A stretch of DNA of 64,000 nt, taken from assembly GCF_006715095.1 (NCBI RefSeq), contig NZ_VFMO01000001.1, forward strand, positions 992,001-1,056,000. Direction: 5' to 3'. Positions 7,270 through 60,102 of the stretch are shown here, piece after piece. Under the pieces are notes generated by a model. The model was not told the DNA's origin. It did not search any database and was given only the letters and a program-made list of their open reading frames with translations. This DNA is from Yimella lutea. Its GTDB lineage: Bacteria > Actinomycetota > Actinomycetes > Actinomycetales > Dermatophilaceae. The stretch's first letter is position 1. Every line of letters begins with the position of its first letter. The position numbers and the translations under genes were made by a program.

Positions 7270-7270
7270 G

Positions 7271-18437: not shown

Positions 18438-20249
<1,812 letters not shown>

Positions 20250-41807: not shown

Positions 41808-41823
41808 CCCACGGTGCTCGAGT

Positions 41824-41856
41824 AGGCCCCGGTTCCTCGTGGACCGGGGCCTTTCG
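41824..41856 (+). terminator. Intrinsic terminator of rpoB-rpoC
   Basis: A 10-bp stem AGGCCCCGGT/ACCGGGGCCT with a 9-base loop is followed by TTCGGC. Just before it, GGTGCTCGAGTAGG is a remnant of the dispersed repeat. Confidence 0.8.
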
Positions 41857-41882
41857 GCGTCCCTCGACGTCGAGGTGACGCC

Positions 41883-41926
41883 AAGTGCACGAGGGCACTC
41901 CGTATACGGAGTGCCCTCGTGCACTT
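41883..41926. terminator. 44-bp perfect palindrome, probable bidirectional terminator
   Basis: The sequence from AAGTGCACGAGGGCACTCCG through its exact inverse is a gapless palindrome centred at 41904/41905, with 22-bp arms. A further partial copy GAGTGCCCTC follows at 41929. It lies between the convergent ends of rpoC and the minus-strand gene, 10 bp from the latter's stop, so it can act on both strands. Confidence 0.75.
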
Positions 41927-41935
41927 CGAGTGCCC

Positions 41936-42850
41936 TCACGCGATCCACTGCTGACCCGGACGCGGACGTACGCCCTTGTCGGCCAGGATCCGCAGCATCG
42001 GACCCTCCGCGTACGCGTCGTCCCAGCACCATCTGGCCAGGTCTGTCACTCGGCGGATCCGGTCCTCGCGCTGCTTCTCGCGCCACACGGCCGCGGACGG
42101 GTCGTCGGTCAGGTCCGCGCCGTACTTCATCTTCCCGTCGCACTCGCCCAGCAGACCGTCCCAGCCGAAGTCGCAGCGTCCGATGAACCCGCGGCCGTCG
42201 CGCACGACGACCTGGAGCTCGGGACGGGGGAGCCTGGCCTGGAACATCACCGCGCGGCTCATCGACTCAAGCGGGGACTCCGCCCTTTCGTCGGCGAGCT
42301 GGGCGACGAGCAGCGCAGTCTGCTTGCCGCGGACGCCGGTCGGGAGCTCGCTCACTGCCTGCCGTAGGGCCTCGATGGCGAACATCTTCTTCCGCAGCGC
42401 TGCGTCCGCGGTGGCGAGCGCACTGCGCAGCGATGTGCACCGGGCCAGGTCGACGACCGTACGCAACGGATCGGTCACGCGAATACCGTTGATCTGCACA
42501 GGGGTCGGAAGTTCCTTGACCCGGTGAAAGCGCTGGACGTGTTGAGAGGTGCGGCCGCGTCCGGCGACCATCACGTCGACGCGGTTCGGCCACCTGCCGA
42601 TGGTCGGCAGGCCGTGCAGCGCTGCCGCAGACCAGTGTGAGACGAGCCGATCCTCCGCCCACTTCGGGACGCCGGCGTGTACCAGCAGTGCGTGCCGCTC
42701 ACCGGCGTCCAGCGCTTCCCACTCGGATGCCGGGTAGAACGCCCCGTGCCGCACCTGCGTCCACGCGTCCTGGTCGAGCGCTTCAGCGCGCAGCGTGCGT
42801 GGTCCGGTGAACTGCAGGAGGGCGGGGTTCATGGCGTCAGCGTGCTCCAT
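41936..42850 (-). CDS. AbiEi-like/DUF559-like protein of unknown role
   Basis: This protein of about 304 residues matches a common actinobacterial family often labelled AbiEi antitoxin-domain or DUF559-like. The N-terminal half looks like a winged-helix unit (WTQVRHGAFYPASEWEALDA, then WSAAALHGLPTIG and TDPLRTVVDLARC). The C-terminal half has a Vsr-like nuclease pattern (VRDGRGFIGRCDFGWDGLLG, then ECDGKMKYG and VWREKQREDRIRR). No toxin partner gene is adjacent, so a toxin-antitoxin role is doubtful. The start is uncertain: TTG 42883, ATG 42850 and ATG 42832 are in frame. It borders the lantibiotic island and is divergent from it. Confidence 0.75.
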   Translation of the reverse strand: MEHADAMNPALLQFTGPRTLRAEALDQDAWTQVRHGAFYPASEWEALDAGERHALLVHAGVPKWAEDRLVSHWSAAALHGLPTIGRWPNRVDVMVAGRGRTSQHVQRFHRVKELPTPVQINGIRVTDPLRTVVDLARCTSLRSALATADAALRKKMFAIEALRQAVSELPTGVRGKQTALLVAQLADERAESPLESMSRAVMFQARLPRPELQVVVRDGRGFIGRCDFGWDGLLGECDGKMKYGADLTDDPSAAVWREKQREDRIRRVTDLARWCWDDAYAEGPMLRILADKGVRPRPGQQWIA

Positions 42851-42939
42851 CTCGGGCGAACGCGCAGGCGGCGCTGTGGACAACCTGGACGATCTTCACC
42901 GGGTCGCGCCATACGGAGCTGCTTCGCGAGCGCCGGACG

Positions 42940-42968
42940 TATGACACCTGTCACCACCATCAGGTGTC
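42940..42968 (+). promoter_or_regulatory. Candidate operator upstream of lanA1
   Basis: TATGACACCTGTCA at 42940-42953 is followed by CAGGTGTC at 42961-42968, an inverse of GACACCTG. The inner edge is 107 bp upstream of the lanA1 start. The same motif with one change (TATGACACCCGTCA) lies upstream of the peptide gene in the opposing operon, at a similar distance. It is a plausible binding site for the cluster response regulator. No strong -35/-10 pair is seen downstream, consistent with an activated promoter. Confidence 0.5.
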
Positions 42969-43075
42969 TTTCGGCCCTGCCGAGTGCGCTGCGGCCGAAG
43001 CAACGATGGGTATGGCTCGAGCGAAAGAGCTCGGCCCGGAAGCAGAAGGCTTCCGCCCATCAGAAGGAGAGCCAG

Positions 43076-43249
43076 ATGAACAACTCCCAGGACACCAGCC
43101 TCGACTGGATCGAGGAGATCAGCGAGCAGTCGTTCGATGCGCAGGCGTTCGGTGCGTGCACGACGAACACCTTCTCGCTGAGCGACCACTACGGCAACAC
43201 CGGCAACTGGTGCACCGCGACCGTCGAGTGCATGGGCTGGTGCAACTGA
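43076..43249 (+). CDS. lanA1: Two-peptide lantibiotic alpha precursor, lacticin 3147 A1-like
   Basis: This 57-residue precursor has a leader of 27 residues ending DAQAFGA and a core of 30 residues starting CTTNTFSLSD and ending CTATVECMGWCN. The core keeps the CTxTxEC lipid II-binding ring of mersacidin-type alpha peptides. From memory of lacticin 3147 A1 (CSTNTFSLSD … CTLTHECMAWCK), about 21 of 30 core positions agree, and the leader also matches (WIEEISEQSFD versus WLEEVSDQNFD). It has four Cys and many Ser/Thr for ring formation. Core Ser7, which is converted to D-Ala in lacticin 3147, is conserved. AGAAGGAGAG precedes the ATG. It is the first gene of the operon. Confidence 0.95.
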   Translation: MNNSQDTSLDWIEEISEQSFDAQAFGACTTNTFSLSDHYGNTGNWCTATVECMGWCN

Positions 43250-43335
43250 TCCGTAGCTGAGGCTGCGGACTCGTCATCCGAAACACGCCGCCGGCCGACC
43301 GGTCCGGCGGAGAACAGATCGAAAGGAACAAGAAG

Positions 43336-43491
43336 ATGCACGACGACCTCGAACTCGGCCGCTACAGCGACGAGGAACTGTTCGAACTCGCCGAAGGGGA
43401 TGTCCACGGCGGCACCACCTGGTCCTGCGCGATCACCACGCTCATCTCGTCGCAGACCTGCCCGACCACGGCATGCACGGACAGCTGCTGA
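43336..43491 (+). CDS. lanA2: Two-peptide lantibiotic beta precursor
   Basis: This 51-residue precursor has a 26-residue leader ending GDVHGG, a double-glycine cleavage site, and a 25-residue core starting TTWSCAITTL and ending CPTTACTDSC. The core ending CPTTxCTxxC is the hallmark of beta peptides (haloduracin beta, lacticin 3147 A2, lichenicidin beta), and the TTWxCA start is haloduracin-like. The leader ELGRYSDEELFELAEGD resembles that of LtnA2. The beta peptide normally binds the alpha-lipid II complex and forms pores. GAAAGGAAC precedes the ATG. It is too short for many gene callers. It lies 86 bp after lanA1. Confidence 0.95.
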   Translation: MHDDLELGRYSDEELFELAEGDVHGGTTWSCAITTLISSQTCPTTACTDSC

Positions 43492-43508
43492 GCAGCGTGA
43501 ACCCCTGA

Positions 43509-43561
43509 GTGTGTCGGTGGGTTGCGGGCGTGAAGAGGACGCCCGCAACCCACCGGTACAC
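43509..43561 (+). terminator. Attenuator hairpin between lanA2 and lanM1
   Basis: A 17-bp perfect stem, CGGTGGGTTGCGGGCGT at 43515-43531 and its inverse at 43539-43555, has a 7-base loop GAAGAGG and extends outward by about five more pairs with wobbles. No T-tract follows. Such hairpins in lantibiotic operons let precursor mRNA greatly exceed enzyme mRNA. Confidence 0.7.
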
Positions 43562-43595
43562 ACCGATCATCGCAGACCCACGGACAAGGAGAGAC

Positions 43596-46508
43596 ATGCG
43601 CACGCAGGATCTGTATCCCGAACTCACCGCATCCGAGGTGGCCGAGATCATCGATCCGGTGCACTTCGGCGACGCGACCGAACGACGTGGCGTCCTGGAC
43701 GTGCCCTCCTTCGCCGCCACGCCGGACGACTTCGGTCCCGGAAACGAGCGATACACCTTCGAGCGAGTTTGCCGGCACATCGCGGATGCCGCGATCGCCG
43801 CTCACCCCGCCACCTTCGACACCGGCGTCCAGGACCTGGATGCGTTCGGTCTGGACCTGTCGCGGACGCTCACCGATGACATAGCCGAGCTCCTGATCCG
43901 TCCGCTCGCCGACAGTGTCCGACCCTGCGACGGTGTCCCGGACGACCTGACGTACCGCACCTTCTGCGCGGATCTGTGTGCGCACGGCCTCGCCGCCTTC
44001 GCCGGCGAGTTCCCGGTGTTGTGGGAACGCCTGCAGGTGCGCCTGGTCGGCCGTCTGGACGCTTTGCGGGAAACCCTCGATCGTCTGGCGGCCGATCGCC
44101 GCGACCTGCAGCAGGAACTCGGGTTGAACGCCGACGCGCAGATCGTGTCCATCGGCATGGCCGGCGACACCCACTGTGGTGGACGCACGGTCTCGGTCAT
44201 CGAGTACGACGACGGATTCAAACTGGTTCACAAGCCGCGCCCGGTTGACTGCGAAGCCGGCTACTCCCGCCTCGTCGAAGAGTTGCGTAGTGATCTCGAT
44301 CTCGACCTTCCGGCCGCGAAGGTGCTTGCCCGCACCGGCTACGGATACGTCGAATTCGTCGAGGTGGATGACGATGCCGACATCGACCTGCGGGACGTGG
44401 GCCGGCTCGGTGCCCTGATGTACGCGCTGAACGCCCGCGACATGCACTTCACCAACATCCTCAACACCGCACGCGGTCCGGTGCCCGTCGATCTCGAAAC
44501 GCTGCTGCACCCGCTGCGGCAGAAGTCGCAGGGCACGATCGAGACCCCCGACAGCGGTTACCAGAAGCTCGCTGTCTCGGTCTTCGGCATCGGCATTCTG
44601 CCGATGATCGTCACCCGGGAGGGACACGACGGATACGCCGACGTGGGTTACCTCGGCGGTGGGGAAGTGCACGGGTCCGGACCGTTCCGCCAGTTCCGTG
44701 TCGAGGACCCCTTCAGCGCACGGGTGCGAGTGTCGTGGGCTCCTGAGCAGCGAACGGCGGTCCAGGCTCTTGACGGTCTGGACACCACGGCCGCCGTCGT
44801 GCGCCACTCGTGTGCACGCATGGTCAATGGCTTCACCCAGGTGTACCGGCTCATCGCTGAGCACAAAGCGGCGTTTGCGGCTGCCGTGCGGCGTTGCTTC
44901 GCCGGCGCCGAACTGCGCTACGTCCACAACGCCACCGTCCAGTACGCCCAGTGCCTGCGCGTCCTGACCGCCAGTTCACCCAGCAGGGACGCCGAGTTGG
45001 CAAAGGGACTGATCAAGCGGATCGGCATCGCCAGCCGTGGCGCCGACCGTCGGTTGATCGACGCCGAGTGCCAGCAGTTGTGGAAGACCGACATCCCGTA
45101 CTTCCTCGTGCGTGCGGACAGCGATGTGATGACCGACGGCGTCGAGCGCCGCCCCGTCGCGCAGTTCGATCGCAGCCCGCTGGCTCAGTGCGTCGCGAAG
45201 GTGGATGCGATGGATGAGCATGATCTGCAGGCACAGGTCCGGTTGATCAGGGTTGCGTTCAACGCCAAGCTCGCTGATCCGCACACGATGGCACCGGCTG
45301 CTGAGGTGCTCAGTGGCGCTGCGGCACCAGAGGATTCGAGCGGCGAAGCGCAACTCGACCTCGCCCGGTACGTGGGCGAGGGACTCGTGCGCGACATGGT
45401 TCAGGATCGTTACGCGCATCTGCCGCAGACGTGGATCGGGCCGGTCGCGACGGCCGTGGCGAACCGTCCGTGGCCGCCGGGGGTGCTCGGCTACGACCTG
45501 TACACCGGACGCGTCGGGCCGGCCCTGACGCTCGCTGCTCTCGGGCGCGCCCTGTCGGACGAGTCGATGCAGGCCGCGTCCCTCGCCGTGTTCGAGCCCT
45601 CGGCACGCATCCTCGACGCAGGGTCGTACGAGGCTCGCAGCATCGCTCGGTCGGGCAACGGCGCGTACGCCGGTTTTCCCGGTGCGCTCTGGGCGATGGC
45701 GTTGGCCGGCCGCCACCTCGACCGTCCCGACCTGACGGTGTCGGCGATCGACGCGCTGGAGTTCCTTCGTCCGGCAAAGCCTGGGCAGGACGACGGTTGG
45801 TTCGACCTGATCACCGGTGACGTCGGCGTGCTGCTCGTGCGAATGGCGCTCGGTCGAGACTGCGCGGCGGAGGCAGTCCACGCATGTGACGTCGCGCTCT
45901 CGACGGGCCTGATCCAGCGGATGGAGTACTCGGGCCTGGCCCACGGACTCGCCGGGTTGCTGCAGTTGGCAGCGCGAACCCATGCGATCACCACTGACCC
46001 GGTCGCCGCCGAACTCGCGGCTGGGGTGATCGACGAGCTCGACACCGTGTTCGGCCGCGGCGCCGGGGCGCCCCGGACAGCGCGCACCGGACCCGCCAAC
46101 GAGAGCGACAGCTGGTGCAACGGCTCGGCCGGGGTGCTGATCGCGATGAGTTCGGCTGCAACAGCCGGTCTGGTCACTGCCGATCGAGTGCAGTCGATGG
46201 TGGCCGGTCTGGCTGATGCTTCGATCGCCACATCGGCAACGTTGTGCCACGGCGCCCTGGGTTTGTACGGAGCACTCGGCATCGCCGCGGCGCACGCCCC
46301 CGAACAAGCACGCCCGTTGCAGGATCGACTGGCCGGCTACCTGGCTCCCGAACGACTACGGCGCTTCCTGGATTCACCGGACAGCCGGTACAGCCAGGGA
46401 CCGTGCCTCATGGTCGGGCGTGCCGGTGTCGGTTGGCACATGTTGTCGCGGACCGGTCACGAACTGGCCTCGCCGCTCGACATGGGCGAGGTGATCCTCG
46501 ATGCCTAA
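43596..46508 (+). CDS. lanM1: Class II lanthipeptide synthetase LanM (1 of 2)
   Basis: This 970-residue bifunctional enzyme dehydrates Ser/Thr and cyclises with Cys. The N-terminal dehydratase (DUF4135, about residues 130-530) has a kinase-like active site: GDTHCGGRTVSVIEYDDGFK, LVHKPRPVDCEAGY, and LNARDMHFTNILNTARGPVP followed by VDLETLLHP. The LanC-like cyclase occupies about residues 630-970. Its zinc ligands are visible at about C841 (DSWCNGSAG) and C884-H885 (TLCHGALGL). CAAGGAGAG precedes ATG 43596. Its place next to the precursors suggests it modifies the alpha peptide, as LtnM1 does, but the pairing is inference. The 3' end overlaps lanT by 8 bp. Confidence 0.95.
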   Translation: MRTQDLYPELTASEVAEIIDPVHFGDATERRGVLDVPSFAATPDDFGPGNERYTFERVCRHIADAAIAAHPATFDTGVQDLDAFGLDLSRTLTDDIAELLIRPLADSVRPCDGVPDDLTYRTFCADLCAHGLAAFAGEFPVLWERLQVRLVGRLDALRETLDRLAADRRDLQQELGLNADAQIVSIGMAGDTHCGGRTVSVIEYDDGFKLVHKPRPVDCEAGYSRLVEELRSDLDLDLPAAKVLARTGYGYVEFVEVDDDADIDLRDVGRLGALMYALNARDMHFTNILNTARGPVPVDLETLLHPLRQKSQGTIETPDSGYQKLAVSVFGIGILPMIVTREGHDGYADVGYLGGGEVHGSGPFRQFRVEDPFSARVRVSWAPEQRTAVQALDGLDTTAAVVRHSCARMVNGFTQVYRLIAEHKAAFAAAVRRCFAGAELRYVHNATVQYAQCLRVLTASSPSRDAELAKGLIKRIGIASRGADRRLIDAECQQLWKTDIPYFLVRADSDVMTDGVERRPVAQFDRSPLAQCVAKVDAMDEHDLQAQVRLIRVAFNAKLADPHTMAPAAEVLSGAAAPEDSSGEAQLDLARYVGEGLVRDMVQDRYAHLPQTWIGPVATAVANRPWPPGVLGYDLYTGRVGPALTLAALGRALSDESMQAASLAVFEPSARILDAGSYEARSIARSGNGAYAGFPGALWAMALAGRHLDRPDLTVSAIDALEFLRPAKPGQDDGWFDLITGDVGVLLVRMALGRDCAAEAVHACDVALSTGLIQRMEYSGLAHGLAGLLQLAARTHAITTDPVAAELAAGVIDELDTVFGRGAGAPRTARTGPANESDSWCNGSAGVLIAMSSAATAGLVTADRVQSMVAGLADASIATSATLCHGALGLYGALGIAAAHAPEQARPLQDRLAGYLAPERLRRFLDSPDSRYSQGPCLMVGRAGVGWHMLSRTGHELASPLDMGEVILDA

Positions 46509-48639
46509 GGTTCCTGTCACCCTGCAGGTGGCACAGACCGAATGTGGTCTGGCGTGTGCGCGTTCGCTGCTCGCCTTCTACGACCATGACGTATCCACGT
46601 CGGAATTGCGGACCGTCCTCGAACCCGGGCGTGATGGCCTGAGCCTGCGGCAGATCTCGCAGCTGCTGAGGGTGCGGGGGATGGACGTCAAGATCTACCG
46701 GATCAAAGCGGCAGCAGCGCTGGAGATCATCGACACGCCCTTCATCGCGCACTGGAAGGGGTACCACTTCGTCGTGGTGGAGAAGGTGACTGCGTCCCAT
46801 GCCGTGATCATGGACCCGATGGTGGGCCGCACCCGCGTGACCCGCACCGAGCTCGCGGAGCAGTTCTCCGGTCACGTACTGGTCGCGCGACCCAGTGAGC
46901 AACTGGTGCGCCGGGTGCGCCCGCGCTTCGCCGCCTGGCGGGGCAAGCCGATCTGGCCGGAAGCCCAGCGCCGGTTGTACGGCGGGCTCGTCGGACTCAG
47001 CCTTCTGCTGTTCGGCTTCACGCTCGCCATCCCGTTGCTGACCCAGCGACTGGTCGATCGAGCCGTGCGCGACCGGATCGACCTGTGGGAAGCACTGGGG
47101 TTGATCGGGCTGGTGGCCGTGGGCTTCTTCCTGGTGCACGTGATGCGCACCTTCGTCGCGACCCGGTTGGTGCAGGCGGTGAGTTGGCGATTGCTCAACG
47201 GCGTCTTCGAACACCTCATCAGACTCCCGCTCAAGTACTTCATGAGCCGTCCGCCGGGCGAGCTGATGTATCGGCTGAACAGCATGAACCAGGTGCGCGA
47301 CATCATCGCCACCAAGATGGTTCAGGGGATTCTGGACGGTCTGACCGCGTTGGTGCTCCTCGGGTACGTGTTCTGGGTGTCGCTCCCGCTCGGGCTGGCC
47401 ATCACGGCCCTCACCGCGACGGTGCTCACCCTGCTGATCCTGAGCCAGCGCCTGGTGCGCGAGACGGTCGACAACGAGGTGCACCACAACGGCCGCACCC
47501 AGAGCGTCCAGATGGACGCCGTCGTCTCGATCACCAACCTGCGCATCGGTGGGTACGCGTCCACCTACCTGGACGACTGGCGGGAGAACTACCGCGAGGC
47601 GCTCGCCGCGATGGGCCGTCGGATGCGCATCCAGCAGGGGTGGGTCGGCGGGCTGATCGGTGCGGTGCAGGCGTTCGCGCCGGTGGCCGTGCTGATCACC
47701 GGGCTGACATGGTCGCGCGACGGGTGGATCAGCGTCGGTGAGGCCGTTGCCGTGCAGGGCGTGGCGGCGTTGTTGTTCGGGCTGAGCTCGTCGGTCTTCC
47801 AGAGCTACACCGAGGCGACGGTCGCGGGGCGCTACCTGGAGCGGGCCGACGACATCTTCGCCTGCCCGGTGGAGGACACCTCCGGCGCGGTCACCCGCCT
47901 CGCCGACAGCGGCATCGACCTGTACGACGTCGGGTTCAGCTACACCGACCACTCGGCGCAGGTACTGGAAGGCATCAGCGTCTCGATCGCTCCCGGCTCC
48001 GTGGTCGCCCTGGTCGGCGAGTCCGGCTCGGGCAAGACGACGCTCGGCAAACTGATCTGTTCGCTGTACCGCCCCACATCGGGGGAGATCCGGTTCGGCG
48101 GCGTGCCACTGGACTCCTACGACCTGGACGCGTTGCGGCAGCGCATCGGGTACATACCGCAGGAGGGCTACCTGCACAACCGGACGCTGGTGGACAACCT
48201 CGTCCTGGGCACCGGTGCGGGCGAGCACGAGGCGATCGCCTTCTGCCGGGAGCTGCCGTTCATGGACTTCGTGGACGCCCTGCCGATGGGATACCAGACG
48301 GTGATCTCGGAGATGGGCGCCAACTTCAGCGGCGGTCAGCGGCAACGGGTCGCGATCGCGAAGGCGTTGCTGCGCCGGCCGAGCATCCTGGTGCTGGACG
48401 AGGCCACCTCGGCCCTGGACAACGCCAACCAGCGCCGGGTGCACGAGTGCATCGCCGAGTTGGAGTGCACGCAGATCATCATCGCCCACCGTTTGTCGAC
48501 CGTCCTGGCTGCCGACCAGATCCTGGTGCTCGCCAACGGGCGGGTCGAGGAGTTCGGCACCCACGAGCAGCTGTCCCGTCAGGAGGGTGCGTACGCGCGC
48601 CTGTTCGGGTCGGCGCAGAAGGAGTTGTCCCATGGATAA
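46501..48639 (+). CDS. lanT: Peptidase-containing lantibiotic ABC exporter LanT
   Basis: This 712-residue exporter has an N-terminal C39 peptidase (about residues 1-135) that cuts leaders after GG/GA. The catalytic Cys is in QTECGLACARSLL, the His in GYHFVVVEKV, and the Asp in IMDPMVG. A six-helix membrane domain (about 155-430) follows. The ATPase has Walker A GESGSGKTTLGKLI, signature FSGGQRQRVAIAKALL, Walker B ILVLDEATSALD and the H-loop AHRLST. It should cleave and export both lantibiotic peptides. It overlaps the genes on both sides by 8 bp, which indicates coupled translation. Confidence 0.96.
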   Translation: MPKVPVTLQVAQTECGLACARSLLAFYDHDVSTSELRTVLEPGRDGLSLRQISQLLRVRGMDVKIYRIKAAAALEIIDTPFIAHWKGYHFVVVEKVTASHAVIMDPMVGRTRVTRTELAEQFSGHVLVARPSEQLVRRVRPRFAAWRGKPIWPEAQRRLYGGLVGLSLLLFGFTLAIPLLTQRLVDRAVRDRIDLWEALGLIGLVAVGFFLVHVMRTFVATRLVQAVSWRLLNGVFEHLIRLPLKYFMSRPPGELMYRLNSMNQVRDIIATKMVQGILDGLTALVLLGYVFWVSLPLGLAITALTATVLTLLILSQRLVRETVDNEVHHNGRTQSVQMDAVVSITNLRIGGYASTYLDDWRENYREALAAMGRRMRIQQGWVGGLIGAVQAFAPVAVLITGLTWSRDGWISVGEAVAVQGVAALLFGLSSSVFQSYTEATVAGRYLERADDIFACPVEDTSGAVTRLADSGIDLYDVGFSYTDHSAQVLEGISVSIAPGSVVALVGESGSGKTTLGKLICSLYRPTSGEIRFGGVPLDSYDLDALRQRIGYIPQEGYLHNRTLVDNLVLGTGAGEHEAIAFCRELPFMDFVDALPMGYQTVISEMGANFSGGQRQRVAIAKALLRRPSILVLDEATSALDNANQRRVHECIAELECTQIIIAHRLSTVLAADQILVLANGRVEEFGTHEQLSRQEGAYARLFGSAQKELSHG

Positions 48640-51331
48640 GGTGACCCGCGCCGTGGTGGACCACTACCGCGCACGCATCGAGGAACGCCAGCACGACATC
48701 GGTGGCATCGACGCGAGCCTGCTGGTCGACGCCGTGATCGACGGCCTCGCGCAGCGGCTGCAACTGCTGATCCCGCGGGTGTACGTGGTGGAGTTCCACC
48801 GTGCCCGTCACGAGTGGGGCTACCCGGTGGACGCCTCCTCGAGCGTCGCTGTCGATCGCTACCTGGAGCAGTTCGGCGCCCACACGATCGTGGAATGGTT
48901 CGAGCGTTACCCAGCTCTGAGCACGCTGCTGGACGGGGTCGTCGACGCCCTCGGCGACCACGTCGCGGAGATCGCGCAGCGTTGGCAGATCGACCGCGAA
49001 GAGATTGCGGCACAAGGGCTTTGCGTACCCGGGCTTTCCCTCACGGGCATCGACCATCTCGGATCGGACGCCCACCAGAACGGCCGCACGGTCGCTGCGG
49101 TTCGGCTGTCGGACGGTTCGCGAGTGATCTACAAACCGCGCAGCCTGGGTGCGGAGGAGTTCACCCGCACGGCGTTGGGAATCGTCAGTGGTGCTCTCGA
49201 GATCGATGTGTCGATGTGCGCCCCGACCTCCCTGGACCGCGGCGTGTACGGCTGGCAGAAGGAGATACACCCCACGCCGGCCGCGGACGCCGACCAGGTC
49301 GCGGTCTTCTACCGCCGGATGGGTGTGCTGTGCGCGGTGCTCGGCGCCTTGGGTGCGATGGACATGCATCACGAAAACGTGCTGGCCGTCGGCGACCACC
49401 CGGTGGCGCTCGACCTGGAGACCGTGCTGCACGCGTCCGCGTCGTTGCGGGCGCATGACCTTTCGGCTGCGATCAGCAACCGTCTCAAGTTGTCGCTTGC
49501 CAACACCCTGCTGCTTCCGCAACGCCTGCCGAGCGGCCCGTACAGCGTGCTGCTCGGCGGGATCGGTGTGCCGTACGAGCAGCAGTCGTCCCGCACCGAG
49601 TACGTCATGGTCAATCGCGACACCGATGCGGTCGACCTGGCTCAGCGCACCTTCGGTTTCGCGCAGACGCACAACGTGCTGCACGACAGTGACGGCGAGG
49701 TGACCGACCTGCTCGACCACCGCGAACACCTGTTGCGCGGACTGCGGGAGGGATGGGCCGCCGTGCGCGCCCGTCGCGAGCAGATCATCGACCACCTGGA
49801 CCACAACCCGATCGAGTTGCGGCAGATCTTCCGGTCGACGGCGGTGTACGGGCGGGTGCTCGACGCGGCCACCCATCCCGACAACCTGGGCCGGCAGGAC
49901 GACTTCGACCGCATCGTCGGGATGCTGCGTGCGCCGCAGGGTCTGCACAGTGGGTTCGTCGCCTCGTTCGTGGTCGACGCCGAACGAAAGGCCTTGGCAC
50001 GCGGCGATGTCCCGTACTTCACCGTTCGTTCCGATGAGTTGCGGGCCCGGTCCGAGAGGGGCCTTTCCGCCCCCATCGCGCACCTGTCGCCGCGGGACCG
50101 CGCAGCCTTCGGTCTGCGCAGTGTGGACGACACCTCGACGATCTTCGAGGAGTTGCTCGTCGAGGAGGGTTTCGCCGAGCTGCGAGCCGTGCGCCGCACG
50201 CACGAACCGTCGTACACCCCTGGCGCGCAAGCCGATTGGGGCAGCCGCCTGCTCACCGACGAGGGCGTCGACCCGGACGCGGTGCTGCACCGGCTGGTGG
50301 ACGTGTCGGTCTGTGTGCAGGGCATCGACGGCACCGAACGCGGGTGGGTGCCTGGTGCGTTCGCTCCCACCCTGGCGACGTTCGATCCCGGTAGCAGCAT
50401 CTCCTTCCACGACGGCGGCGGCATCGTGGTGCCGTTCGCCCGCGCCGGTGGGCCCTGGGACGAGGTGGCCCGTGAGGCCGAGCGCGGCGTCCTGGGACTG
50501 GCACGCGTCTACCAGGAGCGGCTCGAGTCGTTGCCGTGGTCGATCGCGTCCGGCACCCTGTCGTTGCGGTACGCGCTGGGACACGACCGCACCGGTCTTC
50601 GGGTCAGCCCGCTGTGCGACGACGAGGACAAACTCGGCCGGTCGGACACGATGAAGGGCATGCCCGGAGCCGCCGCGCTGCTGTCGACCTTCCCGGACGT
50701 GTCGCGCATCGACCTGGCGGAGGTCGCCGCGCGGATGGGAACGACGGCCGAAGGGTCCGGACCGCTCGACCTCGCACACGGCCCGCTCGGACTCACCTGG
50801 GCGGCCCATCGGGTCGGCCGGGCGCTCGACCGGGAACAGGACGTGCGGGCGGCCGAGGCCGACTTCGCGACCACCCTGGCGGGGCGGGCACAGGCACCTG
50901 TGGGGTGGTGTCACGGTCACGCCGCGGCGTGCCTGGTCGCCGCCGAGATCGAAGCCGACGAGGACGATGTGCGCTGGCACGCGCGGCGAGCTGTCGCGCT
51001 GCCCGAACCCGGTCGGCCGGTCGACCTGTCGGTCTGCCACGGGGCGGCCGGGGTGGTGCAGTCCCTGGTGCACCTGGGACAGGAACGAGGGTTGGGCTGG
51101 GCGACCGAACTCGCCGCCGAGCACTGGGCCCGGGCGGCCCGTCACGCCCGCACCCATGGCTACGTCACCGGCGACCCGGCTCGCCAGGGGCTGCTCGGCT
51201 ACTTCCTGGGGTGGTCCGGCATCGCCGACACGGGACTGCTGCTGCGCGATGCGCTGGCGGGTCACCGAGTGTGGGTGCCGGTCGCCTTCGCCCACTCGCG
51301 CCGCGACGACGGCATGGAGGTGGCGGCGTGA
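48632..51331 (+). CDS. lanM2: Class II lanthipeptide synthetase LanM (2 of 2)
   Basis: This 899-residue LanM is only distantly similar to LanM1. The dehydratase part includes GSDAHQNGRTVAAVRLSDGS, RVIYKPRSLG, and MDMHHENVLAVGDHPVALDL followed by ETVLH. The cyclase has zinc ligands at about C760 (GWCHGHAA) and C802-H803 (SVCHGAAG). Two-peptide lantibiotics usually have one LanM per precursor, so this one probably handles the beta peptide. I start it at ATG 48632, inside the lanT stop; the longer frame upstream is the lanT shadow. The last codons overlap the oxidoreductase start. Confidence 0.94.
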   Translation: MDKVTRAVVDHYRARIEERQHDIGGIDASLLVDAVIDGLAQRLQLLIPRVYVVEFHRARHEWGYPVDASSSVAVDRYLEQFGAHTIVEWFERYPALSTLLDGVVDALGDHVAEIAQRWQIDREEIAAQGLCVPGLSLTGIDHLGSDAHQNGRTVAAVRLSDGSRVIYKPRSLGAEEFTRTALGIVSGALEIDVSMCAPTSLDRGVYGWQKEIHPTPAADADQVAVFYRRMGVLCAVLGALGAMDMHHENVLAVGDHPVALDLETVLHASASLRAHDLSAAISNRLKLSLANTLLLPQRLPSGPYSVLLGGIGVPYEQQSSRTEYVMVNRDTDAVDLAQRTFGFAQTHNVLHDSDGEVTDLLDHREHLLRGLREGWAAVRARREQIIDHLDHNPIELRQIFRSTAVYGRVLDAATHPDNLGRQDDFDRIVGMLRAPQGLHSGFVASFVVDAERKALARGDVPYFTVRSDELRARSERGLSAPIAHLSPRDRAAFGLRSVDDTSTIFEELLVEEGFAELRAVRRTHEPSYTPGAQADWGSRLLTDEGVDPDAVLHRLVDVSVCVQGIDGTERGWVPGAFAPTLATFDPGSSISFHDGGGIVVPFARAGGPWDEVAREAERGVLGLARVYQERLESLPWSIASGTLSLRYALGHDRTGLRVSPLCDDEDKLGRSDTMKGMPGAAALLSTFPDVSRIDLAEVAARMGTTAEGSGPLDLAHGPLGLTWAAHRVGRALDREQDVRAAEADFATTLAGRAQAPVGWCHGHAAACLVAAEIEADEDDVRWHARRAVALPEPGRPVDLSVCHGAAGVVQSLVHLGQERGLGWATELAAEHWARAARHARTHGYVTGDPARQGLLGYFLGWSGIADTGLLLRDALAGHRVWVPVAFAHSRRDDGMEVAA

Positions 51332-52314
51332 GTACCGGACGTCTGTCGTTGCTGTTCGGCCTCCAGGTCGAATGCCTCGACGTGCTCGAGCAGTACGGAC
51401 GATGGTGCGAGCAGGACGACCGTCGCCTGTGGCTCGGTCAGTCGACGATGATCGAGACCCACGTCGCGCTCGCGGGCATCGCCGGACGCGGGGTACGCAT
51501 CGAGACCGGCCTCGCCGTCGCGGTAGCACCCCTGTTCACGCCGACGCTGGCGTGGGTGCAGGCGCGCTCGGTCGCGCACCTGATGGAGCGTCCGGTCTGT
51601 GCGGGGTACGGCATCGGCACGATGGCCACGGCGCAGGCGCTGCTCGGGCATCCGTTGTCCGCCCCGGCCGGTTACGTGCGCGACTTCGTGTCGGAAATCG
51701 GCGACTTCCGCGCCGAGGAGGACGAGGGCTCGATGGGCAGCCGGGTCTCGCTCGGCGCAGGCGTCCTGCGTCCGGGCATGGCACGGCGTAGTGCCACCGT
51801 CTGCGACTTCGCCGTCACCTGGCTGACCCCGCTGGGCTACCTGAGCAGCACGTTGATGGACGCGTTCGACGCCGGGGCCGAGCAGGCGGCGCGGCCGCGG
51901 CCACGCGTGGTCAGCATCGTTCCCGCCGCCGTCCGGCGGGCCGATCACCCGCCCATCCCGATGGCCGCGATCAGCTGTGGCCAGCACATGCAACTTCCGC
52001 ACTATGCGCAGATGCTGCGCGGCGCCGGCGTCGACATCACCGGCGACGTACCGCACGACCTGCGCGAAACGGTGCGAGCCGGACTGTTCCTGTACGGCTC
52101 GCCCGACGAGATCGCCGCCCGGATCCTGGAGTACTTCCGATCCGGCGTGGACGAGGTGGTGCTCAACGTCGGCAGTGTTCATCTGCTGCACGGCCTCGAC
52201 GCCGCCTTGTCGGACGCCCAGGAGATCGCGGACGCGGTCGCCCGGGCGACCGGTGAGCAGGACCTGACAGAAAACCGACAGCAAGAGAGGAACCGGACAT
52301 GTTCGCTCGTATGA
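51328..52314 (+). CDS. Luciferase-like flavin/F420 oxidoreductase, candidate dehydroalanine reductase
   Basis: This 328-residue protein has the TIM-barrel LLM pattern (LSLLFGLQVECLDVLEQYG, VRIETGLAVAVAPLFTPTLA, GYGIGTMATAQALLG, and GSPDEIAARILEYFRSGVDE near the C-terminus). These enzymes use FMN or F420. LLM enzymes in lanthipeptide clusters (LanJC, such as LxmJ of lexapeptide) reduce dehydroalanine to D-Ala. Lacticin 3147 gets its D-Ala from an unrelated zinc enzyme, LtnJ, which is absent here. That makes this a likely non-homologous replacement. The GTG start overlaps the lanM2 stop (GTGA). The substrate assignment is inference. Confidence 0.85.
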   Translation: MSTGRLSLLFGLQVECLDVLEQYGRWCEQDDRRLWLGQSTMIETHVALAGIAGRGVRIETGLAVAVAPLFTPTLAWVQARSVAHLMERPVCAGYGIGTMATAQALLGHPLSAPAGYVRDFVSEIGDFRAEEDEGSMGSRVSLGAGVLRPGMARRSATVCDFAVTWLTPLGYLSSTLMDAFDAGAEQAARPRPRVVSIVPAAVRRADHPPIPMAAISCGQHMQLPHYAQMLRGAGVDITGDVPHDLRETVRAGLFLYGSPDEIAARILEYFRSGVDEVVLNVGSVHLLHGLDAALSDAQEIADAVARATGEQDLTENRQQERNRTCSLV

Positions 52315-52502
52315 AGTACTTCTTCTTCCAGGCACGGTACGGATGGGTCCTCACCCTCGGCGTGATCTTCACCGCAGCGCTGGTGGGCCAGGACAAGGTC
52401 CCGATGGCCGTGTTCGCGGCGCTCGTGACACTCGTCGCGTGCACCGTGGTCTTCCTGCGGGTCGATCGTTCTCGGATGCGGGAACTGGGCCGACAGGGGT
52501 GA
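52299..52502 (+). CDS. Small two-helix membrane protein, possible immunity factor
   Basis: This 67-residue protein has a basic aromatic N-terminus (MFARMKYFFFQARYGW), two membrane helices (about residues 16-29 and 34-53), and a charged tail (RVDRSRMRELGRQG). AGAGAGGAACC precedes ATG 52299, which lies inside the 3' end of the oxidoreductase gene. No family is recognised. Small membrane peptides of this kind next to LanFEG transporters often provide producer immunity (LtnI-like or LanH-like), so an immunity role is a reasonable guess only. Confidence 0.7.
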   Translation: MFARMKYFFFQARYGWVLTLGVIFTAALVGQDKVPMAVFAALVTLVACTVVFLRVDRSRMRELGRQG

Positions 52503-52506
52503 TGAC

Positions 52507-53451
52507 ATGACTGCCGGTTCGACGAACGAATCGCGCATCACCTTCGAGGCACTGACCAAGCGCTACGGCGCTCGCACCGTCCTCGACGGTTTCGACGTCG
52601 GGGTCCGGCCCGGTTCGGTGACGGCCTTGCTCGGCCCGAACGGGTCGGGCAAGACCACCGCGCTGCGCGTGCTGCTCGGTCTCGAGCGGGCCACCAGCGG
52701 CCGCGCGCTGATCGGCGGTCGCGAGTACCGCACGCTCGACCATCCGGTACAACGGATCGGAGCCCTGCTGGACGCGTCCTGGGTGCACCCCAGGCGGTCG
52801 GCCGGCGATCACCTGGCCTGGATCGCCCGGGCGTCCGGCATCGCGACCGACAACGTCACCCGAGCGCTCGCCGAGGTGGGCCTGAGCGGTGTCGCCGACC
52901 AGTCGGCCGGCACTTTCTCCCTGGGCATGCGGCAACGGTTGGGCATCGCCGCGACCATTCTCGGCGACCCGCGAGTGCTCGTCTTCGACGAACCGCTCAA
53001 CGGCCTCGACCAGGAGGGGGTGCACTGGGTGCGCGACTTCTTCGCGCGGCAGACCGAGCAGGGACGCACCGTGCTGCTGTCGACCCACATGCTGCAGGAG
53101 GTGGAGCACACTGCCGACCGCATCATCGTGCTCGGCCAGGGCACGGTGCTGTACGAGGGACCGACCGACGGTCTGGAGTCGGGCGAATCGGCCGTCGAGA
53201 TCGGGGTGCGCGAGCATCCGGACGCCGACGAGTTGGTCCACCGCCTGGCCGCCGACCACGGCTGGCGCGTCGAGCCGTTGCCCGCCGGCACGGGTGGACC
53301 CGGCTACCTGCTGCGCGGCGCGCAGGTCGAGCAGGTCACCACCGCCCTGGCCGACACCCCGCTGATCCTGCGCCGAGTGCAGGAGAGCGGTTCGTTGGAG
53401 CAGTTGTACGGACGACTCACCGCCACTCGAGCCGACTACATCGGCCGCTGA
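52507..53451 (+). CDS. lanF: ABC transporter ATPase, LanF-type immunity
   Basis: This 314-residue ATPase of the BcrA/NatA type has Walker A LLGPNGSGKTTALRVL (about residues 38-53), signature FSLGMRQRLGIAATIL, Walker B VLVFDEPLNGLD and the H-loop STHMLQEVE. A C-terminal domain of about 90 residues follows. Together with the next gene it forms a LanFE-like pump, which expels the lantibiotic from the membrane of the producer. The gene starts 4 bp after the small membrane protein stop. The whole operon from lanA1 therefore includes its own self-protection. Confidence 0.92.
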   Translation: MTAGSTNESRITFEALTKRYGARTVLDGFDVGVRPGSVTALLGPNGSGKTTALRVLLGLERATSGRALIGGREYRTLDHPVQRIGALLDASWVHPRRSAGDHLAWIARASGIATDNVTRALAEVGLSGVADQSAGTFSLGMRQRLGIAATILGDPRVLVFDEPLNGLDQEGVHWVRDFFARQTEQGRTVLLSTHMLQEVEHTADRIIVLGQGTVLYEGPTDGLESGESAVEIGVREHPDADELVHRLAADHGWRVEPLPAGTGGPGYLLRGAQVEQVTTALADTPLILRRVQESGSLEQLYGRLTATRADYIGR

Positions 53452-53466
53452 GGAAGGAGCGAGCAG

Positions 53467-54297
53467 ATGAACACCGTGTTCTCGAACGCCGCGAACATCG
53501 CCCGCGCGGAGTGGACCAAGTGGCGCAGCATCGGGATCCCGTTGCGTTACGGGTCCGCCGCGGTGGGGTTGTCGATTCTCATCACCACCCTGATCGGCCT
53601 GGCGATGAACCAGGCCAACACCTATTGCGAGCAGCCCGGCAAGAGTTGTTCGAAACCGCCGATGGCGCCCTCGGAGAGCATCGTCACCGCCGGCATCCTC
53701 GGCGACGGGACGCCGGGTGCCGGTCTGATCACGTTGATGCTGCTCGGTGCCACCACCGTGCTGGTCGAGTACCGCTACGGGACGCTGGGCACGGCCTTCC
53801 TGGCGACCCCGCACCGCGGCCGGCTGATGGCGGTCAAGTCGTTGCTGGTCGGCGCACTGGCGTTCGTGCTGGCGTTCGTCAGCGCGGTGACCTCCGGGCT
53901 GGTGTTCGTCGCTGTGTCCGGCAGCGCGGGAGACAAGATCTCGCCCCTGTCGGCGCAGACTCTCGCGATCTGCCTGCGGACGGCGCTGGTGGTCGGTCTG
54001 GCCGCCGCGGCCGCGGTGGCGCTGGCCACCGTGGTGCGCAACGCAATGGCGGTGGTCGCGGTGATCGTCCTGTGGCCGCTGGTGCTGGAGCCGTTGCTGC
54101 CCTCGATGCTACCTGGTGGCAGTGAGCGGATCGCCGCGCTGCTGCCGTTCGCGAACGCTCGGCATTACGTCGGGCTGAGCGACCAGGGCATCGACTTCAC
54201 TTGGGGCGCAAGCGGTTCGGGGATCTACTTCACCGCTTTGATGCTCGCCGCCGCGATGGTGGGCACCTGGTACGTGCGCCGGGTCAACATCAGGTGA
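53467..54297 (+). CDS. lanE: ABC transporter permease, LanE-type immunity
   Basis: This 276-residue membrane protein has about six helices. The N-terminal amphipathic IARAEWTKWRSIGIPLRYG precedes the first helix, and an extracytoplasmic loop carries two cysteines (NQANTYCEQPGKSCSKPPMA). It is typical of ABC-2 permeases in immunity or natural-product export. Only one permease gene is present, so the pump would be a homodimer rather than a LanFEG trio. AAGGAGCGAGCAG precedes the ATG. It is the last gene of the operon and converges with the response regulator gene 25 bp away. Confidence 0.9.
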   Translation: MNTVFSNAANIARAEWTKWRSIGIPLRYGSAAVGLSILITTLIGLAMNQANTYCEQPGKSCSKPPMAPSESIVTAGILGDGTPGAGLITLMLLGATTVLVEYRYGTLGTAFLATPHRGRLMAVKSLLVGALAFVLAFVSAVTSGLVFVAVSGSAGDKISPLSAQTLAICLRTALVVGLAAAAAVALATVVRNAMAVVAVIVLWPLVLEPLLPSMLPGGSERIAALLPFANARHYVGLSDQGIDFTWGASGSGIYFTALMLAAAMVGTWYVRRVNIR

Positions 54298-54322
54298 GCG
54301 GTCGGACGCAGGCGACGCGCGC

Positions 54323-54928
54323 TCAGATGAAGCCGCGTCGCCTGGCCGCTCGTGCCGCCTCGGTGCGCGAGGTCGCCTGCATCTTGGTCATCGCACTGGA
54401 CAGGTAGTTGCGGACGGTGCCGCTGGACAGGAACAGCTCCTCGGCGATCTGCGTGGTTCGCAGCCCTTGGTGCACCAGGCGAAGCGTGTCGCGCTCCCGG
54501 TCGGTGAGCGGGTTGGGGCCGGCGACCAGCGCCTCGGCCGCGATCGCCGGGTCGAGCACCACTCCGCCGCCGGCCACCGTGTGGATCGCCTCAACGAGTT
54601 GCTCGGCGGTAGAGGTCTTGGGCAGGTAGGCCGAGCTCCCGGCCGCCAGCGCCGTCGCCAGGTGTCCGCTGCGGGGGATCGAGGTCAGCAGCATCACCTT
54701 GCAGTCGGGCAGCGCCTGACGCAGTTGCCTGCAGGCCTCGATGCCGGTCAGGCCGGGCATCACGACGTCGAGCAGCGCGATGTCGGGGCGATGCTCGCGA
54801 GCCGCTTCGACGACTCGGTCGCCGCGGTTGACGCGGGCCACCACTTCGAACTCCGGCTCGGTGTTGAGCAGCGCGACGAACGCCTCTGCAACCAGATCCA
54901 GGTCCTCGGCGATCAACAGTTTCAACAC
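54323..54928 (-). CDS. NarL/LuxR-family response regulator
   Basis: This 201-residue regulator has an N-terminal receiver domain with the acidic pocket (LLIAEDLDLV), the phospho-acceptor Asp in IALLDVVMPG (about residue 54), the Thr of MLLTSI and the Lys of YLPKTS. The C-terminal LuxR helix-turn-helix reads LTDRERDTLRLVHQGLRTTQ followed by IAEELFLSSGTVRNYL. It resembles DesR and the AmfR/RamR group that controls SapB-type peptides. GTG 54928 is the start. It is the last gene of the minus-strand operon, 83 bp after kinase 2. It probably activates the promoters carrying the TATGACACC motif. Confidence 0.93.
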   Translation of the reverse strand: MLKLLIAEDLDLVAEAFVALLNTEPEFEVVARVNRGDRVVEAAREHRPDIALLDVVMPGLTGIEACRQLRQALPDCKVMLLTSIPRSGHLATALAAGSSAYLPKTSTAEQLVEAIHTVAGGGVVLDPAIAAEALVAGPNPLTDRERDTLRLVHQGLRTTQIAEELFLSSGTVRNYLSSAMTKMQATSRTEAARAARRRGFI

Positions 54929-55011
54929 GGCATGCCCTTCTCAGCAAGGTCCGACCCGGTCCGACCCGTCGATTATCGGGGGTCGGACGCGCTCGCCGCC
55001 GTCACGGGTCC

Positions 55012-56127
55012 CTACCCGCCGGTCGGGAAGCGAACCGTCACGCGATACCGGCCATCGGACAGAGGACCGGCGTCCAGGTGAGCACCCATGGGCCTCAGCG
55101 ATTCTCGCCACCGCCGGTGACCGGTGCCGGCGTCCGACGCCGGAGCGGATGCACGCACCCCGTCGTTGGTGATCGCCAGCACCGTCTCACTGTCCGAACG
55201 ACGCACCGCGATGACGCAGCGGGTCGGGTCGGCGTGCTTGAGCAGGTTCGTCATCGCCTCGCGCAGCACGAGCGCGGCCGCGTCGGATATCTCGCGTTCG
55301 GGGATGTCGTCGATGCTGAGGATGAGGTTGACCCCGAGCCGGTCACACACCTCCCGCACCGCCAGCAGTTCCTCGGGGAACGAGGTCTGCTGCGCCTCGA
55401 AGGTGAGCCGTCCCAGTTGCTCCCGGCCGTCGCCGAGGATGCCGCCGACCTCCTGCAACTCGCCATCGAGGGCGGCGTCCCGCACGTGGGTACGGGCGGC
55501 ATCGAGGTGATGCTGGGCGGTGGCGAACGTGCGGCCGAGCAGGGAACGCACCTGATGACCCAGCCGCAGGCGTTCCTCCTGCATGCGCTCCTCGAGCAGT
55601 TCGCCGCGGGCGTCGTGCAACTCCTCGGTGGTCTGCGCGGTGAGTTCCAACAGGCACAGCACCACGGCGACCAGCAGCGATTGACCGATCGCGATGATGA
55701 TCGCGAACGGACCCTCGTCCCCGGCCCGGCCGGTGGTGCTCAGGATCCACCCGATCACGATGAGCGTGAACGACCAACGGGCGGGCAGGGACAGCAGCAG
55801 CACCGTGGTGCCGGTGATCGTGCGGACGTCGACGGACTCGGGGGAGGCCAGGATGCCGAAACCCAGCAACGCGACACCGAGCACCGGACCCACCCAGGCC
55901 GGGCACCGGCGGCGCAGCATCAGCCACGCGCCGAACGCCACCGCGCACAGGCCGTTGATCGCCAGATCGGCACCGACCGGGCTGAGCCGAGCGGCCAGCA
56001 GGCCGACGATGAGGATGGCCAGCACCCGCGGCACGAGCGGACCGTCGAGGACGGTGCGTTCGTCCGCCCGGGCCATCGCGGCGGTCAGGTGCCCGGCGCC
56101 GGTGGACTGTCCGGGGGTCGGGGTCAC
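55012..56127 (-). CDS. Histidine-kinase-like protein lacking the phospho-acceptor His (kinase 2)
   Basis: This 371-residue protein has about five membrane helices (residues about 38-155), then a DesK-like dimerisation helix and an ATP-binding domain. The dimerisation motif reads EERLRLGHQVRSLLGRTF. Aligned with DesK (RDLHD) and kinase 1 (RDLHDIMG), the acceptor His is Arg and the next Asp is Ser. The ATP-binding domain keeps the N-box (LREAMTNLLKHA), the NDG of AITNDG and a partial glycine loop (GTGHRRW). It can probably bind ATP but not autophosphorylate on the normal residue. GTG 56127 overlaps the kinase 1 stop. Confidence 0.85.
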   Translation of the reverse strand: MTPTPGQSTGAGHLTAAMARADERTVLDGPLVPRVLAILIVGLLAARLSPVGADLAINGLCAVAFGAWLMLRRRCPAWVGPVLGVALLGFGILASPESVDVRTITGTTVLLLSLPARWSFTLIVIGWILSTTGRAGDEGPFAIIIAIGQSLLVAVVLCLLELTAQTTEELHDARGELLEERMQEERLRLGHQVRSLLGRTFATAQHHLDAARTHVRDAALDGELQEVGGILGDGREQLGRLTFEAQQTSFPEELLAVREVCDRLGVNLILSIDDIPEREISDAAALVLREAMTNLLKHADPTRCVIAVRRSDSETVLAITNDGVRASAPASDAGTGHRRWRESLRPMGAHLDAGPLSDGRYRVTVRFPTGG

Positions 56128-57260: not shown

Positions 57261-57336
57261 ACGGTCGGTCGCCCCTGCGGGATCCGCAGCGGCGACCGAC
57301 GGTGTGGTCGAGGAGGTGCTCAGTGGTCCCTCGCGG

Positions 57337-57441: not shown

Positions 57442-57543
57442 CAGGTTCTTCCTCTCGGTGTGGCGGTGCCGACCCTCCCGGTCGGTACCCGCCTGTGGAA
57501 AGTGCGTGTCTCGATTCAACCCGAGGCCGGGCCCGTGCGGGGA

Positions 57544-60095: not shown

Positions 60096-60102
60096 CTCCT
60101 AC

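Follow-up and report, generated by a model that had tools for sequence, protein, structure and literature searches.

A class III lanthipeptide cassette as a candidate controller of a birimositide-type two-peptide lantibiotic operon in Yimella lutea

In a 64,000-nucleotide stretch of the Yimella lutea chromosome (contig NZ_VFMO01000001.1, positions 992,001 to 1,056,000; hereafter the window), a two-peptide lantibiotic operon lies beside a small set of regulatory genes. The question that this locus raises is whether the two sets belong together. The lantibiotic operon occupies positions 43076-54297 of the forward strand. Converging with it, on the reverse strand at 54323-59946, five genes encode a class III lanthipeptide synthetase (LanKC), a 34-residue peptide, two histidine kinases and a response regulator; we refer to these genes as the cassette. 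Our analysis indicates that the cassette most likely controls the lantibiotic. We also lean, modestly, towards a reading in which the kinases respond to the tiny peptide as a pheromone and the regulator turns on both operons. The genes and sites concerned are as follows.

42942-42953, no strand assigned: operator-like palindrome TGACACCTGTCA, 134 bp 5' of the LanA1 start; matrix rank 1
43076-43249, + strand: LanA1, alpha precursor, leader ending in FGA, core CTTNTFSLSDHYGNTGNWCTATVECMGWCN (PF14867, NF000539)
43336-43491, + strand: LanA2, beta precursor, leader ending in GDVHGG, core TTWSCAITTLISSQTCPTTACTDSC (NF038161)
43596-46508, + strand: LanM1 lanthipeptide synthetase, starting at ATG 43596, with an in-frame GTG also at 43509 (PF13575, PF05147, TIGR03897)
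46501-48639, + strand: LanT, C39 peptidase-ATP-binding cassette (ABC) exporter (PF03412, PF00664, PF00005)
48632-51331, + strand: LanM2 lanthipeptide synthetase (PF13575, PF05147)
51328-52314, + strand: LanJC-type luciferase-like reductase, in the slot after LanM2 (PF00296)
52299-52502, + strand: 67-residue protein, hydrophobic by eye, possible immunity part by its position, without a family match
52507-53451, + strand: ABC ATPase, probably for self-protection (PF00005)
53467-54297, + strand: ABC permease, probably for self-protection, judged by position and hydrophobic sequence
54323-54928, - strand: NarL/LuxR-type response regulator (PF00072, PF00196)
55012-56127, - strand: histidine kinase 2, GTG start, recognised in alignment by its similarity to the kinases of other cassettes
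56124-57398, - strand: histidine kinase 1, true start uncertain (PF07730, 29 bits, cut-off 24)
57337-57441, - strand: candidate pheromone precursor of 34 residues, MNVQDMRQLHTDDESGDTDLTAPVGSLSLFIFGC, starting at ATG 57441 within the frame 57337-57519; counterparts lie 3' of LanKC in eight other cassettes
57568-57579, no strand assigned: operator-like palindrome TGACACCCGTCA, 127 bp 5' of the tiny precursor, over the LanKC stop codon; matrix rank 2
57577-59946, - strand: LanKC, class III lanthipeptide synthetase (PF25816, PF00069, PF05147)

We found that the cassette recurs in other genomes. LanKC was searched in overlapping samples of 149 family, 396 order and 394 class genomes, and regions were opened from 19 other genomes, a subset of those with a match. 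In 8 of these 19 regions the cassette is present: LanKC is followed by a peptide of 31-34 residues and accompanied by one or more kinases and by a regulator of at least 49.5% identity. The cassette was not seen in the other 11, two of which (G856 and G754) were checked for the kinase and regulator only. With the window included, a membrane kinase and a response regulator are encoded together with the peptide in all nine cassettes, and the window regulator is 49.5-66% identical to those of the eight others. A hydropathy scan gave two to five N-terminal peaks per kinase, each cassette having at least one kinase with four or more.

The genes beside the cassette differ from genome to genome. In a genome of another family (G353), a single strand carries the kinase, regulator, LanKC and peptide genes followed by LanA1, LanA2, LanM1, LanT, LanM2 and LanJC, with LanT 62% and LanJC 46% identical to the window proteins. 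In the congener G002 (L055, L104), the cassette is followed by genes for an aminoglycoside phosphotransferase (APH)-type kinase, a LanJ-like reductase (34%), a flavoprotein, an M16 peptidase and ABC proteins, a set that resembles the class V cluster in the accessible part of PMC12291118. YcaO and nitroreductase genes lie about 12 kb from the cassette of G020, while the G127 cassette is surrounded by genes for ABC proteins, a multicopper oxidase, an AMP-ligase and a 3-dehydroquinate synthase II, which we read as an aminohydroxybenzoate-type cluster. The neighbour clusters of G076 and G105 were judged by layout alone. A separate observation is that a third LanM gene, accompanied by a C39 exporter of its own and by an ABC ATPase, follows the two-peptide operon of G353 (L097 positions 17224-22352 counted from 3249000; G353:C1 about 3266200-3271400), and that a strong box (L097 16956) stands ahead of it.

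The second line of evidence is a control site common to the two operons of the window. The pattern TGACNNNNGTCA occurs there three times, at 23670, 42942 and 57568, and an 8-bp inverted repeat, GACACCTG-N10-CAGGTGTC (42943-42968), overlaps the palindrome at 42942. A matrix was trained on 16 hand-picked sites before LanKC or the tiny peptide, all from other genomes. In the window its highest score, 19.65, fell on 42942 and the next, 18.8, on 57568; the site in third place (13.1) lies inside kinase 1. First-order Markov simulation of 100 windows of 64 kb gave means of 0.01 and 0.02 sites as good as ranks 1 and 2, with a median best score of 14.2 and a highest score of 24.3. When G020, G002 and G353 were left out of the training, the ranks held (20.0 at 42942 and 18.3 at 57568, versus 13.2). 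Scored by matrices trained without their own genome, seven of the eight other cassettes have a site of at least 15 before the tiny peptide, the exception being G336. In G353, sites of at least 15 precede the tiny peptide, LanA1 and the third LanM operon; sites also occur before an ABC operon in G076, G127 and G105, and before an ABC gene in G002. The LanA1 and tiny-peptide promoters have this operator in common, and shared control is well supported.

The box was also scored in loci that lack the cassette. Among 33 such loci (590.8 kb) three sites reached at least 18: two in Nocardioides, within kinase-like frames, and a third about 200 bp before LanA1 in Streptomyces daqingensis. The Nocardioides hits (L008, L009) fall inside long frames and were set aside as coding, and they are still counted in the background. 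At the corresponding position, three Streptomyces relatives of this species score 14.9-15.7, each match ranking first in its locus. In the Streptomyces loci L016, L021, L027 and L028, a related palindrome about 190-200 bp before the alpha match gives the best matrix score, and no LanKC was found in the fetched stretches. At the position upstream of LanA1, nothing above 7.7 was found in the other 19 of 23 loci (L014 left out). The presence of sites in loci without a cassette means that the box is not unique to cassettes.

Within the cassette, LanKC has RamC-type N-terminal, kinase and LanC-like parts, with three Pfam models above cut-off, and it scores 470.1 bits against NF038151, under the cut-off of 575. 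The reading of LanKC as a decayed stray gene was rejected, as all three domains are present. The peptides of the other cassettes (8 of 8) end in (S/T)xxS-x(3-5)-C plus at most one residue, and in an alignment of six the leaders are alike near their start; we take these leaders to resemble those of class III precursors. Labionin-type class III precursors carry the motif (S/T)xxS x(2-5) C. The window precursor, which ends in GSLSLFIFGC, does not contain it, Gly standing at the first position of (S/T)xxS. Therefore, we claim no labionin for the window, and a lanthionine could still form. As for the kinases, the longer frame around kinase 2 (55015-57210) has no Pfam match. Kinase 2 has an intact N-box and no His in the phospho-acceptor column; kinase 1 keeps the H-box RDLHD. 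The same arrangement, a second kinase without the phospho-acceptor His and with the N-box, is present in each two-kinase cassette (window, G002 and G020). The two window kinases could be functional only as a pair, or the window copy could be decaying.

Taken as a mechanism, these parts could work as follows. LanM1 and LanM2 would dehydrate and cyclise the alpha and beta precursors, LanJC would convert some dehydroalanines (Dha) to D-alanine (D-Ala), LanT would remove the leaders and export both peptides, and the ABC pair would protect the producer. By analogy with lacticin 3147 and birimositide, alpha would bind lipid II and beta would form the pore. The calculated [M+H]+ of the alpha core is 3190.216 after seven dehydrations, or 3192.23 with one reduction; that of the beta core runs from 2451.024 to 2378.981 for 8 to 12 dehydrations, each reduction adding 2.016, and lower numbers of dehydrations (18.011 per step) could also occur. 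On the regulatory side, LanKC would crosslink the C-terminal Ser-Leu-Ser-x5-Cys of the 34-residue precursor to give a short hydrophobic ring peptide. Once exported and trimmed, this peptide would be sensed as a pheromone by the paired membrane histidine kinases, which would phosphorylate the response regulator. The regulator would in turn bind the TGACAcNyGTCA boxes before the tiny-peptide operon, resulting in autoinduction, and before LanA1, switching the lantibiotic on. We infer a signalling role for the class III peptide from its short ring motif, the constant company of kinase and regulator, and the variety of partner clusters. Somewhat more tentatively, with confidence a little short of even, we propose that the cassette is a transferable actinobacterial quorum-sensing unit, consisting of a minimal class III lanthipeptide signal, single or paired kinases and a conserved regulator, plugged before unrelated product clusters that would include two-peptide lantibiotics, class V-like lanthipeptides and an aminohydroxybenzoate-type cluster.

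Several observations weigh against control by a peptide signal as set out here. No exporter or protease for the signal was found among the five genes of 54323-59946. Hence, we say that the cassette works like a pheromone two-component system and stop short of classing it as one; the tiny peptide might leave the cell through LanT or the ABC pair. The Gly of the window peptide, where the eight other cassettes have Ser or Thr, and the change of the N-box Asn to Phe in kinase 1 may both reflect decay. Two genomes, G027 and G336, have no obvious partner product cluster near the cassette. Regarding the box, it was first spotted in the window and in G020 and G002, and the training sites were chosen by hand. 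With one mismatch allowed, it is no commoner than in shuffles (14 versus 13.4), so that the case for a shared box rests on the matrix. Enlarging the background to 41 loci (728.3 kb, by adding L058 and seven Firmicutes loci) gave 4 sites of at least 18 and 11 of at least 15. One of these (18.9, L058 8167, genome G118) coincides with the end of LanKC in a locus without the kinase-regulator cassette. No box of at least 15 precedes the azole-type genes of G020, and some strong sites in G076 and G127 (L108 14465 and L109 18686) could not be linked to a role. A LanA1 box and LanKC are both missing from the two Nocardioides clusters.

Upstream of these Nocardioides clusters (L008 about 4600-8900, L009 4700-8950) lies a different set: a LanM-like gene, a small precursor-like peptide with SIST[VI]HC, a regulator 31-32% identical to that of the window, and a frame that resembles a kinase. 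Perhaps this set represents the same idea with a different synthetase.

The alternative that survives best, which we consider unlikely and still worth weighing, is that the class III peptide is itself an end product, either a surface peptide resembling SapB or else a third antimicrobial, with the kinases answering another cue and the lantibiotic co-regulated. Clusters of the SapB/AmfS type encode a LanKC with RamC N-terminal, kinase and LanC-like parts and have a LuxR-type regulator nearby, as in the window. A box before both operons would suit any shared regulator, and the site at the end of LanKC in L058 occurs without the cassette. On the other hand, the cassettes carry one or two kinases, and the 34-residue precursor has one short hydrophobic C-terminal ring motif, versus the two-ring type present in G349 and G275. 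Moreover, the regulator is conserved while the peptides and the adjoining clusters vary, which is the pattern expected of a signal.

Considerably less probable is that the window holds a stand-alone lacticin 3147-like operon derived from an old transfer, the opposite-strand genes being unrelated neighbours. The operon and its similarity are real, and the convergent orientation permits independent units; nevertheless, the two sets share one stretch that is absent from two congeners, they are joined in G353, the box is common to both, and the gene for D-Ala formation is LanJC and not LtnJ. The weakest alternative, a nisin-style autoinduction in which the mature lantibiotic is the kinase signal and the class III pair is incidental, follows the precedent of nisin as antimicrobial and pheromone (PMC10257480, in its available text) and is improbable, given that no such lantibiotic operon was seen in the examined stretches of seven of the eight other cassettes (G105 and part of G336 being searched with LanT, LanJC and ABC queries only), yet the tiny peptide is present in all eight.

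We turn next to the lantibiotic operon itself. The first-pass annotation had described a complete lacticin 3147-like operon, and each gene that it named was found where it had been placed. Its gene list was incomplete, as the PF00296 reductase (51328-52314) and the 67-residue protein (52299-52502) had been omitted. By its gene content, the operon is a complete two-peptide class II lantibiotic set of the birimositide type and close kin of lacticin 3147. LanA1 scores above cut-off against PF14867 (28.1 bits, cut-off 27) and NF000539 (40.4, cut-off 29), and the alignments place a mersacidin-like CTxTxEC ring in it. LanA2 has no match in Pfam and reaches 68.8 bits against NF038161 LchA2/BrtA2 (cut-off 26), with a GG leader and a CPTTxCTxxC end in the alignment. 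The agreement of 21 of 30 core positions between alpha and LtnA1 given in the first-pass annotation was reproduced by alignment; over the whole precursor the count is 32 of 56 aligned positions, and beta agrees with LtnA2 in 28 of 53 aligned columns.

Both synthetases look intact in sequence. Their zinc motifs WC[NH]G...CHG are present, and of the columns invariant across 23 other clusters LanM1 retains 105 of 106 and LanM2 70 of 70. LanM1 scores 410.7 bits against TIGR03897 (cut-off 304) and LanM2 300.4, 3.6 below that cut-off. Of the probable self-protection genes, the ABC ATPase has as its top NCBIfam model TIGR03740 (lantibiotic protection ABC), at 163.7 bits and under the cut-off of 309.75, and the permease has no family match in Pfam or NCBIfam. 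An immunity role of the 67-residue protein is a possible guess from gene position. Scans for tandem repeats, tRNA genes and Rfam families added nothing between 41 and 61 kb.

The main difference from lacticin 3147 lies in the gene after LanM2. The product of 51328-52314 matches PF00296 above cut-off (40.4 bits). An LtnJ-type gene at this place was ruled out, as no similarity to LtnJ is detectable. The 24 loci collected with this alpha peptide (22 from the search, the lacticin 3147 plasmid and one Streptomyces plasmid) include 17 from actinobacteria. LanJC directly follows LanM2 in all of these 17, and an LtnJ homologue occupies the slot in five of the seven Firmicutes loci. In the remaining two, the sequence stops just past LanM2 (L012) or the 10.7-kb contig has no LanM match (L017). 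The two reductases occur together in none of the 24 loci. LanJC is predicted to be the actinobacterial stand-in for the D-Ala-forming LtnJ. The alpha peptide of the window retains Ser7, which is presumably the residue turned into D-Ala in lacticin 3147. By analogy, LanJC would convert Dha to D-Ala, as proposed for Ser-derived Dha and the birimositide gene of this family, for which the name LanJC was introduced (PMC7268733, in the part accessible).

The cofactor of LanJC is less clear. Its best NCBIfam matches are F420-dependent families, all far under their cut-offs. A structure model (pLDDT 89.5) has a luciferase-like fold, and the top PDB ranks are the F420-dependent Mer and the F420-dependent oxidoreductase KvPepI. 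Flavin mononucleotide (FMN)-type monooxygenases follow closely (E 6.5e-12 versus 3.0e-11 at rank 15), all at 11-18% identity, so the PDB ranking does not settle the cofactor. The Y. lutea genome encodes FbiA (TIGR01819, 334.4 bits, cut-off 257.45) and a CofE-type ligase (TIGR01916, 190.4 bits, cut-off 180.65). FbiA and a short FbiB of 347 residues, with the CofE part only, lie at G000:C1:3093391-3095441 (L048 7392-9442). Against the use of F420, no CofH, which is required for FO, scored above cut-off in this genome, and LanJC may operate without F420. CofH exceeds its cut-off in 10 of 58 genomes, Y. lutea being among the 58, and in neither congener. A candidate at 609848 was rejected: it scores 33.9 bits and lies inside a radical SAM gene resembling biotin synthase. 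FO synthesis was thus not found in the genome. An ABC set resembles the proposed F420-0 importer, matching TIGR03868, TIGR03869 and TIGR03873 best and staying under all three cut-offs. LanJC may use salvaged F420 or FMN.

How did the two gene sets reach this genome? The LanM1 search in 58 genomes returned Y. lutea itself and one weak case (30% identity, another family); there was no match in the two congeners or in any of 33 other genomes of the same family. Comparison with the congeners delimits one extra stretch:

About 41808-60102, no strand, ends approximate: extra stretch from rpoC (end at 41807) to the low-molecular-weight phosphatase gene (GTG at 60103)

From rpoC to the phosphatase gene the distance is 18.3 kb in the window, versus about 3.9 kb in G001 and about 1.2 kb in G002, where other genes are present and 11 cluster genes tested gave no match. 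Downstream, the order phosphatase, TauE-like, CysC, CysD is common to all three. Both the lantibiotic operon and the cassette fall inside this single stretch of about 18 kb, and their joint gain is the simplest reading of the gap, loss in the congeners being the alternative. Given the missing LanM1 in congeners and family and the congener intervals free of cluster genes, the acquisition by this lineage looks recent. Two findings weigh against a purely local event: one relative of the alpha peptide is named as a Dermatophilaceae metagenome-assembled genome, and near-identical copies of the peptide occur on seven contigs. A close copy of LanKC (97% identity) also exists elsewhere. The congener intervals (L060, L061) carry genes that differ from each other, and so the interval may be a frequent site of gain and loss.

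In a tree of LanM1, LanT and LanM2 from 24 clusters, rooted at the midpoint, the window groups with the two Nocardioides clusters (ultrafast bootstrap, UFBoot, 100), then with Aeromicrobium (99); the clusters from Firmicutes group among themselves (UFBoot 100). The claim of a lacticin 3147-like operon in a high-GC actinobacterium stands, and that of a plain lacticin 3147 cluster received by old transfer finds no support in that form, given this tree and the presence of LanJC instead of LtnJ. The deep split between Firmicutes and Actinobacteria may represent an old transfer. On plasmids, the alpha peptide search returned 15 records, 13 of them from Staphylococcus aureus and the others including Lactococcus and Streptomyces. 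Neither LanJC nor the alpha peptide has a relative among the viral contigs searched.

Such a lantibiotic outside Firmicutes is not as surprising as the first-pass annotation implied: birimositide (brt) was described from Streptomyces rimosus WC3908 in 2020 (PMC7268733), and three putative two-component lantibiotic clusters have been reported in Streptomyces (accessible part of PMC3951391). The lantibiotic itself is an additional member of a kind already described in soil actinobacteria, and it brings another actinobacterial family into the birimositide group. With birimositide, as far as the accessible description goes, it shares the lacticin 3147-like alpha peptide and the luciferase-like LanJC, and its beta peptide fits the NCBI family LchA2/BrtA2, as in the birimositide type. 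The masses of both birimositide peptides are consistent with one Ser to D-Ala conversion (PMC7268733, available text). Compared by description and not by the brt sequence, birimositide differs in that the accessible text does not mention a class III cassette (PMC7268733).

Lacticin 3147 (pMRC01, NC_001949) has the gene order A1-A2-M1-T-M2-J in common with the window, whereas its LanM proteins are 25-28% identical to those studied here, its J is annotated as a medium-chain dehydrogenase without similarity to the window J, and 20 kb of its plasmid show an annotated helix-turn-helix regulator and no kinase. Lexapeptide LxmJ and rosin RosJ are F420H2-dependent luciferase-like or LanJ reductases that act on Dha, according to the available parts of PMC8498797 and PMC12291118; their peptides are of class V and that of the window is of class II, and LanJC of the window may share their cofactor. 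The window supports the pattern in which actinobacterial clusters have LanJC where Firmicutes clusters have LtnJ.

The proposed signalling role has two parallels. Agr-type quorum sensing brings together a small cyclic peptide, a membrane kinase and a response regulator that control a neighbouring operon. The cassette would work in a manner similar to agr and to nisin autoinduction (PMC10257480, accessible part, for nisin), but with a ring made by a class III lanthipeptide synthetase and with a signal distinct from the controlled product. We found no description of a class III lanthipeptide pheromone with a kinase in the titles and abstract openings of the openly accessible literature, which is weak evidence of absence. 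In the nearest study (PMC10301443), a lanthipeptide synthetase-like protein is reported to be an Agr quorum-sensing effector in Clostridium. If the proposed role is true, class III lanthipeptides acquire a new function, and one lanthipeptide class controls the production of another. A ring peptide of about 10 residues would then be a chemical handle to switch on silent actinobacterial antibiotic clusters, and the TGACAcNyGTCA box together with LanKC, peptide, kinase and regulator would be a sequence tag for finding the clusters under such control.

A few minor observations complete the survey. A further LanC-like match occurs in a 1024-residue open frame of the Y. lutea genome (G000:C1:1962463-1963515, L051), and the surrounding 18-kb stretch has no box scoring at least 11. 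The alpha gene of Pontibacillus litoralis (L017 4534-4716) differs from other family members at the end of its core. In the Streptomyces loci L019, L023 and L025, the beta precursor gene is present in two copies.

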